Shown one piece after another: positions 53,809 to 56,924 of a DNA stretch of 64,000 nt. Source of the DNA: Gammaproteobacteria bacterium (GTDB lineage: Bacteria; Pseudomonadota; Gammaproteobacteria; Steroidobacterales; GCA-2729495); contig JASJBD010000004.1 of NCBI GenBank assembly GCA_030066665.1, positions 1 to 64,000 of the forward strand. The letters run 5' to 3'. Numbering within the stretch: position 1 is the first letter of the stretch; every line of letters begins with the position of its first letter. Made by a program: the position numbers and the translations under genes. The notes beneath the pieces are model-generated. The model was given only the letters and a program-made list of their open reading frames with translations, was not told the origin of the DNA and made no database searches.

Positions 53809-54381
53809 TTACCAGAGGGTGATTTTCCAGCCGCCGGTTTTGTCCTCGCCTTTCTGCCGGCGCTCCCGGATCCGGTGATGCAACAGGGCCCGCTGGTCAG
53901 CCAGCCAGTCTTCCTTGGAAATGTCCGTGGGCAATCCCTGGTTTTCGCGACGTTGCCGCTCCGCCGCCCGGAACCCGCAGAAGCTCTGATAGGCGGACAA
54001 TTCGGGCTCGAAATCGCGCAGCGTCAGTTCGATCATGATGGCGTCATCGAGATACCCGAGCACGGGCACGCGGTCCGGGATAACGTCGACCGGCTCGCGG
54101 AAATAGTACAGCGCGCTGTGGATGCGCGTGGTTTCGTCCTCCTCGAGACCCCACTCGGTGTCGGCGAGCATGTCCGCGAGCTGTTCCAGTTGCTGAATGC
54201 GCACCGCAATAAAGTCCGGTAAGTCATCCGCATCTTGCGCGCGCCGCAATTTCTCCCGCACCTCTATTGCTATCTTCTCGTGATTGACTTTTTGCGGCAC
54301 GCGGCTTTTGACCTGCCGGGCCATGGCTGCAAATCGCGCCAGGTCATGCTCGTCAAGTTCGATCGATATTTGCAGTGACAT
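53809..54381 (-). CDS. YkvA/DUF1232-like protein
   Basis: 'ALYYFREPVDVIPDRVPVLGYLDDAIMIEL'. Confidence 0.75.
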   Translation of the reverse strand: MSLQISIELDEHDLARFAAMARQVKSRVPQKVNHEKIAIEVREKLRRAQDADDLPDFIAVRIQQLEQLADMLADTEWGLEEDETTRIHSALYYFREPVDVIPDRVPVLGYLDDAIMIELTLRDFEPELSAYQSFCGFRAAERQRRENQGLPTDISKEDWLADQRALLHHRIRERRQKGEDKTGGWKITLW

Positions 54382-54400
54382 GCTTCCTCCCGTGGCGGTG

Positions 54401-55264
54401 TCAGCCGCCATCCTGCAGAAATGGAAAGCCGTGTTTCATGCTCAGCTCGGCTTTGGTCAGTTCCTTCCCGATGTACGCGGCATGATCGAGCTTGGATATC
54501 CAGCCATTGCGCACCAGGGTCAGGTAGATGCTGCGGGCATCCGTGCCTTCGATGACCCGTAACAGTTTTTCCTTGTAGGAATAGTGTTCGACCAGGATCG
54601 CGCCAGCTTTGATGTTGATGACGAAATAGCCTGTCTTGTCGAGCTTAATTCGCTGCGGATCTTCGCCCGTGGCAATCACGTGATCGACAGTCTCGGCCTC
54701 GACCATGCCGGCCGGCGGTGCGAATTTCACTGCTACAGGGTCGGGCGCCCGGGCCGCGAGTTCGCGGATCTTGTCATGGATCTTGGCGACATTGGTGCAG
54801 CCAACCATCAGGACGGGCTCGATCTGGCGGCGAAAAGCTTCAACCTCCGTCGTCTTGGTATTGGGCAATACCGGTCGCATACCCGGCGACCCTGAAATAC
54901 GATTGTTCTCGTCGATGCCGTTTTCGAACAGCGCCACCATGGTCGCACCCGTGAGATGTTTCGGCGGCTCATTGCCGACACACAGGAGGAACCGGATAGC
55001 GTTATTGGAAATCACGTTTTTGATGATTTTCTCGATGCCGATGTTCTCGGTCTCCACCTTGCCTGTAATGCACAGACCTGCCGGCGGATCCGCCGCGATT
55101 GCCGGGGCCAGATCGACACTGCCAAGGGTGCATACCGCGACCGGTGCCTCCGGGTCGGACACAAAATACGTACCCGGCACGTACGGCCAGTTCGGCATTT
55201 TTGCATGGGTACTGGCAAACGTACGGCTCAGAAAAAAGCCGAAGTCTTCCATGATGGGTGGCAT
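54401..55264 (-). CDS. MtrA-like (tetrahydromethanopterin S-methyltransferase subunit A-type) protein with DUF4346-like C-terminus
   Basis: 'WPYVPGTYFVSDPEAPVAVCTLGS', 'GKVETENIGIEKIIKNVISNNAIRFLLCVGNEPPKHLTGATMVALFENGIDENNRISGSPGMRPVLPN' follows the MtrA soluble-domain pattern. Confidence 0.78.
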   Translation of the reverse strand: MPPIMEDFGFFLSRTFASTHAKMPNWPYVPGTYFVSDPEAPVAVCTLGSVDLAPAIAADPPAGLCITGKVETENIGIEKIIKNVISNNAIRFLLCVGNEPPKHLTGATMVALFENGIDENNRISGSPGMRPVLPNTKTTEVEAFRRQIEPVLMVGCTNVAKIHDKIRELAARAPDPVAVKFAPPAGMVEAETVDHVIATGEDPQRIKLDKTGYFVINIKAGAILVEHYSYKEKLLRVIEGTDARSIYLTLVRNGWISKLDHAAYIGKELTKAELSMKHGFPFLQDGG

Positions 55265-56811: not shown

Positions 56812-56924
56812 GGGTCCGCGCTGGTCCCCCCGCGGCGGCTACCCGTGAACCCCGTCAGGCCCGGAAGGGAGCAGCGGTAGCGGCGACGCCGGGCGCCGGG
56901 GTGTGGCTGGCGCGGATCCTTTTT
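56812..56924 (+). ncRNA. ffs: Signal recognition particle (4.5S) RNA
   Basis: Core 'GTCAGGCCCGGAAGGGAGCAGC'; 5' GGTCCGCGC pairs with 3' GCGCGGATCC followed by T-run. Confidence 0.93.

Follow-up and report, generated by a model that had tools for sequence, protein, structure and literature searches.

An MtrA-DUF4346 protein from a gammaproteobacterium is a candidate soluble cobamide-binding methyl carrier

Introduction

MtrA is a vitamin-B12 protein of methane-making archaea, and Mtr is an eight-subunit membrane complex. The presence of an MtrA-like gene in a gammaproteobacterium raises the question of what such a protein does there and whether it could carry methyl groups in soluble form. We addressed this question with a computational analysis of a 64,000-nucleotide stretch of DNA (the window) and of the genome to which it belongs. 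Bacterial MtrA homologues were already mentioned in print in 2016 (PMC4915002), and the two-domain MtrA-DUF4346 architecture is already known as an NCBIfam model. In the literature that we searched, subscription papers aside, we found no description of MtrA-DUF4346 proteins, their subfamilies or their link to riboswitches, and no mention of DUF4346 or its Pfam model PF14251.

Results

The window encodes a two-domain protein of the MtrA family

A preliminary description of the window had proposed a protein with an MtrA-like soluble N-terminal domain and a DUF4346-like C-terminus. Profile searches agreed with both assignments (Table 1): the protein scored 144.8 bits against PF04208 (MtrA; cut-off 25) and 70.4 bits against PF14251 (PterinBD-DUF4346; cut-off 29.6). 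A crystallized MtrA was also matched by phmmer (E 3e-32). All NCBIfam MtrA models scored below cut-off, which counts against a methyl carrier. TIGR01111 gave 135.2 bits (equivalog cut-off 249), and NF002128, a 390-aa 'MtrA' model that has the MtrA + DUF4346 architecture in common with the window protein, gave 287.5 bits across aa 25-286 (cut-off 568). As the preliminary description had stated, the C-terminal membrane anchor of MtrA is absent; the C-terminus consists of DUF4346, which is alpha/beta in our models. Conserved residues in this domain include Asp209, Glu226-His227, His261-Ala-Ala-Tyr and Glu268 in the alignment.

Table 1. Features at and around the MtrA-DUF4346 gene (window coordinates)
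Feature	Position	Strand	Basis
DUF1232 gene, overlapping the 3' end of the MtrA-DUF4346 gene by 11 nt	53809..54411	minus	ORF + Pfam
CDS, 287-aa MtrA-DUF4346 protein (type I)	54401..55264	minus	ORF + Pfam + pS/pN
PterinBD-DUF4346 domain, aa 208-285	54410..54643	minus	PF14251, E 2.2e-19
MtrA domain, aa 23-177	54734..55198	minus	PF04208, E 2.6e-42
His103 codon CAT (read 54958-54956), counterpart of cobalt-ligating His84	54956..54958	minus	Alignment
Thr72-Glu73-Asn74, counterpart of MtrA Thr53-Glu54-Asn55	55043..55051	minus	Alignment
Divergent neighbour, 247 aa	55305..56048	plus	Weak AurF match, E 0.1, below cut-off
Bacterial small SRP RNA	56819..56909		RF00169, 56.8 bits

Purifying selection acts on this gene. 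Set against five homologues, it gave pS values near saturation (0.69-0.83), compared with a pN of 0.14-0.29. Because motifs are kept across 11 aligned proteins and pS is near saturation while pN is low, the open reading frame is not a chance one. The flanks look bacterial, with dnaX, ybaB and recR recognized by eye and an SRP RNA found with Rfam. These flanks, together with orthologues in other gamma- and alphaproteobacterial genomes, make archaeal contamination unlikely. The SRP RNA lies directly upstream of the dnaX-like gene. In profile searches, the host genome contained a single PF04208 gene and a single PF14251 gene.

Cobalamin-contact residues are conserved in a predicted MtrA fold

We built an AlphaFold2 model from 11 type I sequences, type I being the subfamily of the window protein. 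The mean pLDDT of the full-length model was 64.8, with residues 1-36 and 177-207 below 50, which counts against the carrier reading. MtrA structures were the sole Foldseek matches at E <0.001 (E 7e-13, TMt 0.77-0.82). Comparison of the model with MtrA, a check that the preliminary description had suggested, recovered the Rossmann fold (cobalamin-bound 5laa, E 8e-13, TMt 0.82, at an overall pLDDT of 64.8). The cytoplasmic MtrA homologue from Methanothermus fervidus (5laa) and the soluble domain of Methanocaldococcus jannaschii MtrA (5l8x) share the domain and predicted fold of the window protein, at ~37-42% identity.

In MtrA, His84 ligates cobalt, Glu54 hydrogen-bonds His84, and Thr53, Asn55, Asn64 and Tyr18 surround the cofactor (Wagner et al., PMC4915002). 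All six residues of 5laa and 5l8x have counterparts in the window protein: His103, Glu73, Thr72, Asn74, Asn83 and Tyr33, respectively. His103 had been placed at the cobamide-ligating position in the preliminary description, and its alignment with His84 agrees. These six residues are identical in 11/11 type I proteins, as are Gly76 and Pro131. The conservation of these contacts makes corrinoid binding plausible, as initially suggested. The conserved GAIPF meander segment of MtrA reads GMRPV in the window protein, where Gly128 and Pro131 are retained and the remainder is changed. The Arg130 change alone would leave the His-Glu linkage unbroken, because Ile111 reaches Glu54 through its main-chain N.

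MetH-type cobalamin domains share the His lower ligand, its acidic partner and a Rossmann-type domain with the window protein, but their binding site differs (PMC4915002). The DxHxxG fingerprint of the MetH-type B12-binding domain reads PKHLTG here, with Pro101 in place of Asp.

No MtrH or MCH match was found in a host that encodes MetH

The preliminary description had noted no mtrB-H genes, and we likewise noticed none within the 64-kb window. Searches of the host genome (87% complete) extended this result: neither MtrH (PF02007) nor MCH, the H4MPT cyclohydrolase marker (PF02289), had a match, whereas the control methanogens (two for MtrH) were positive. An H4MPT-dependent role in an Mtr complex was rejected on these grounds for this 87%-complete genome. 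Given that MtrH and MCH were not found in the host genome and that the NCBIfam MtrA cut-offs were failed, we conclude that the protein belongs to the MtrA domain family and is not a subunit of the methanogen Mtr complex. CH3-H4MPT is an unlikely donor, since the host has no MtrH or MCH match; methyl-THF is, by inference, a plausible one.

These features set the window protein apart from MtrA as represented by 5laa and 5l8x, in that its host is a bacterium without MtrH or MCH matches and DUF4346 stands where MtrA has an anchor or nothing. Asgard MtrA-like and MtrAH fusion proteins likewise occur outside methanogenesis and without a full Mtr complex (PMC11291895). Unlike the window protein, the Asgard proteins are archaeal, occur with or fused to MtrH, and are proposed to perform CH3-H4MPT chemistry (PMC11291895).

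The host encodes MetH and so has another cobalamin enzyme. Replacement of MetH by the window protein was ruled out, as MetH is present. A second pterin-binding methyltransferase was also sought, and MetH was the sole Pterin_bind match in the host. FolP was missing too, so the lone match may reflect the incomplete assembly.

The host genome also contains a MesD-like core methionine synthase (L036:6430-7488, contig G000:C168; 432 bits to 3RPD). MesX is reported to be necessary for MesD. We obtained no MesX match (PF08908) in the host or in 35 relatives, in a search that matched no control genome either and does not establish absence. The window protein might then act as methyl donor for MesD, much as MtrA is predicted to feed MesA in methanogens (Price et al., PMC7857596). 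We consider this very improbable despite a host MesD-like protein with no MesX match in that control-negative search. A co-occurrence test of MesD as partner was negative, with most members of the family having MesD without MtrA. In addition, one assembly with a type I gene (G016, 80% complete) is without MesD, and published MesD is cobalamin-independent.

Type I genes have no conserved partner

The DUF1232 and MtrA-DUF4346 genes overlap and are possibly co-transcribed; their adjacency is not kept at other type I loci. The divergent 247-aa protein carries ferritin-like Glu/His motifs and is not conserved near homologues. No partner gene was conserved beside type I genes across lineages, and no cobalamin riboswitch was found at the type I, II or III loci searched. 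The first result, and the second for type I, count against the carrier reading.

Some gammaproteobacteria, including Thioalkalivibrio, have DsrE, FCSD/SQR-like, TusA, CbtA or nitrile-hydratase-family genes ~10 kb or nearer to the type I gene. At four loci (L009, L011, L012 and L033), the type I gene lies in a cobalt/sulfur neighbourhood, with genes for nitrile-hydratase-family subunits, CbtA (cobalt transport), DsrE, SQR-like proteins or TusA close by, and a DUF3050-TetR set adjoins it in both L009 and L011. These neighbourhoods in Thioalkalivibrio-like and other gammaproteobacteria would fit an aerobic methylated-sulfur route, in which a methyl group passes from dimethylsulfide or a related compound to tetrahydrofolate. 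Aerobes have been proposed to possess a cobalamin-dependent DMS methyltransferase, but such an enzyme has never been identified (PMC6548844). We nevertheless judge this route quite improbable for the window protein, because no sulfur genes were recognized around its gene and the association is limited to a few related lineages.

The lack of a methyltransferase partner beside type I genes, set against cobalamin-contact residues that are kept, also raises the idea that the protein binds a cobamide without being catalytic. It would then store, chaperone or sense B12 and pass the cobamide on, for example to MetH, the sole pterin-binding methyltransferase found in the host. The stand-alone DUF4346 genes under cobalamin riboswitches in cyanobacterial plasmids (see below) favor this idea as well. 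However, the His-Glu linkage, by which methyltransferases and mutases tune their cobalt, shows full conservation and would be needless for a mere store. We regard a non-catalytic role as somewhat unlikely.

Bacterial MtrA proteins are sparse and form at least three subfamilies

The distribution of PF04208 is sparse, which counts against the carrier reading. Counting types I, II and III together, PF04208 was present beyond the host in 4/59 relatives (type I in three of them, type II alone in G038), in 6/368 sampled genomes of the class (type I in two) and in 1/398 sampled genomes of the phylum. A contig scan with narrow peptide patterns identified 10 loci in Gamma- and Alphaproteobacteria and one KSB1 MAG. 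The KSB1 occurrence is on a single 6-kb contig and may be mis-binned.

An alignment of 19 proteins, from which we typed the subfamilies, contained at least three bacterial subfamilies. Type III proteins have the MtrA + DUF4346 architecture of the window protein and keep the His. They differ from it in their Cys-rich N-terminal region and metal-resistance neighbourhood, both of which the window protein lacks. Type III clusters contain ArsR plus, variously, a P-type ATPase, SMR, DsbD with thioredoxin, an RND-like pump or a MerC-family gene. In Planococcus plasmids, type III lies beside ArsR and a heavy-metal P-type ATPase. We recorded five type III loci (L028:2354-3544, L029:9568-10695, L031:9193-10413, L032:7883-9013 and L054:7350-8729); the MerC-family gene overlaps the type III gene in L028. 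It is possible that type III proteins use corrinoid chemistry in metal handling.

The cobalt-ligating His and the TENIGIEK motif have both disappeared from type II proteins, which retain DUF4346 (L034:9531-10574, L035:1905-2807). A permease gene, cation-chloride cotransporter-like by eye, directly follows the type II gene. Since type II keeps DUF4346 without these residues, DUF4346 would have a function independent of corrinoid, which counts against the carrier reading. Type II also provides an apparent precedent for a relic or repurposed protein, in which corrinoid binding is lost and function resides in DUF4346. For the window protein this is scarcely credible, because all cobalamin contacts are invariant in type I and under purifying selection.

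In a phylogenetic tree, a branch with 100/99 support separated type I from type III and archaeal MtrA, which grouped together, and type II was on long branches. This tree is unrooted, with long branches, few rows and only three archaeal sequences, and gives neither a root nor a direction of transfer.

DUF4346 is associated with cobalamin riboswitches in cyanobacterial plasmids

The C-terminus of the window protein matched the end of TIGR00284 (dihydropteroate-synthase-like; E 5e-15, below cut-off). In the Nostoc edaphicum plasmid pNe_5, a cobalamin riboswitch lies upstream of the gene order DUF1636-metE-DUF4346 (L056:1580-5327). A Calothrix NIES-4105 plasmid has one cobalamin riboswitch before a stand-alone DUF4346 gene (L079:5651-6384) and another before a DUF1636-sized gene and metE. 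These arrangements tie DUF4346 to B12/methionine physiology in the Nostoc and Calothrix plasmids, whatever its ligand. The TIGR00284 match, the DUF1636-metE neighbours in Nostoc and the cobalamin riboswitches together link DUF4346 to C1/B12 chemistry.

Pterin binding by DUF4346 is suggested only by its family name. Modeled alone, the domain reached a pLDDT of 84.6 with no PDB match at E <=0.001, which counts against the carrier reading. Sugar-kinase and similar fragments were weak matches and were set aside as its fold.

Discussion

We favor, with moderate confidence, the reading that the window protein is a soluble methyl carrier of the MtrA type that binds a cobamide, with DUF4346 on the C1/pterin side. 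We infer cobamide binding, methyl transfer and the role of DUF4346 from domain identity, the predicted fold, contact-residue conservation, the lack of MtrH and MCH matches and purifying selection. In the proposed mechanism, a base-off cobamide would sit in the N-terminal Rossmann domain, where His103 would be its lower ligand with Glu73 behind it, and the bound cobamide would alternate between the Co(I) and CH3-Co(III) states. DUF4346 takes the place of the membrane anchor of methanogen MtrA. Its most likely role is on the C1 side, where it would bind or position a methyl-pterin (probably methyl-THF) or the partner methyltransferase that holds one. The protein would act outside an Mtr complex and without H4MPT, and the final methyl acceptor is probably a thiol.

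A bolder version of this model is that MtrA-DUF4346 proteins are self-contained bacterial corrinoid methyltransferases in which DUF4346 replaces the pterin-binding TIM barrel found in MetH and MtrH. We consider this version unlikely. If it is true, bacteria without H4MPT would gain a second, unrecognized B12-dependent route of methyl transfer.

A soluble bacterial version of MtrA offers a small system for the MtrA mode of cobalamin binding outside the eight-subunit membrane complex. If the protein is a methyl carrier, bacteria with no detected H4MPT pathway would have an additional B12-dependent step. Concrete leads on an unstudied domain come from the DUF4346 genes linked to riboswitches and from the subfamily in metal-resistance clusters.
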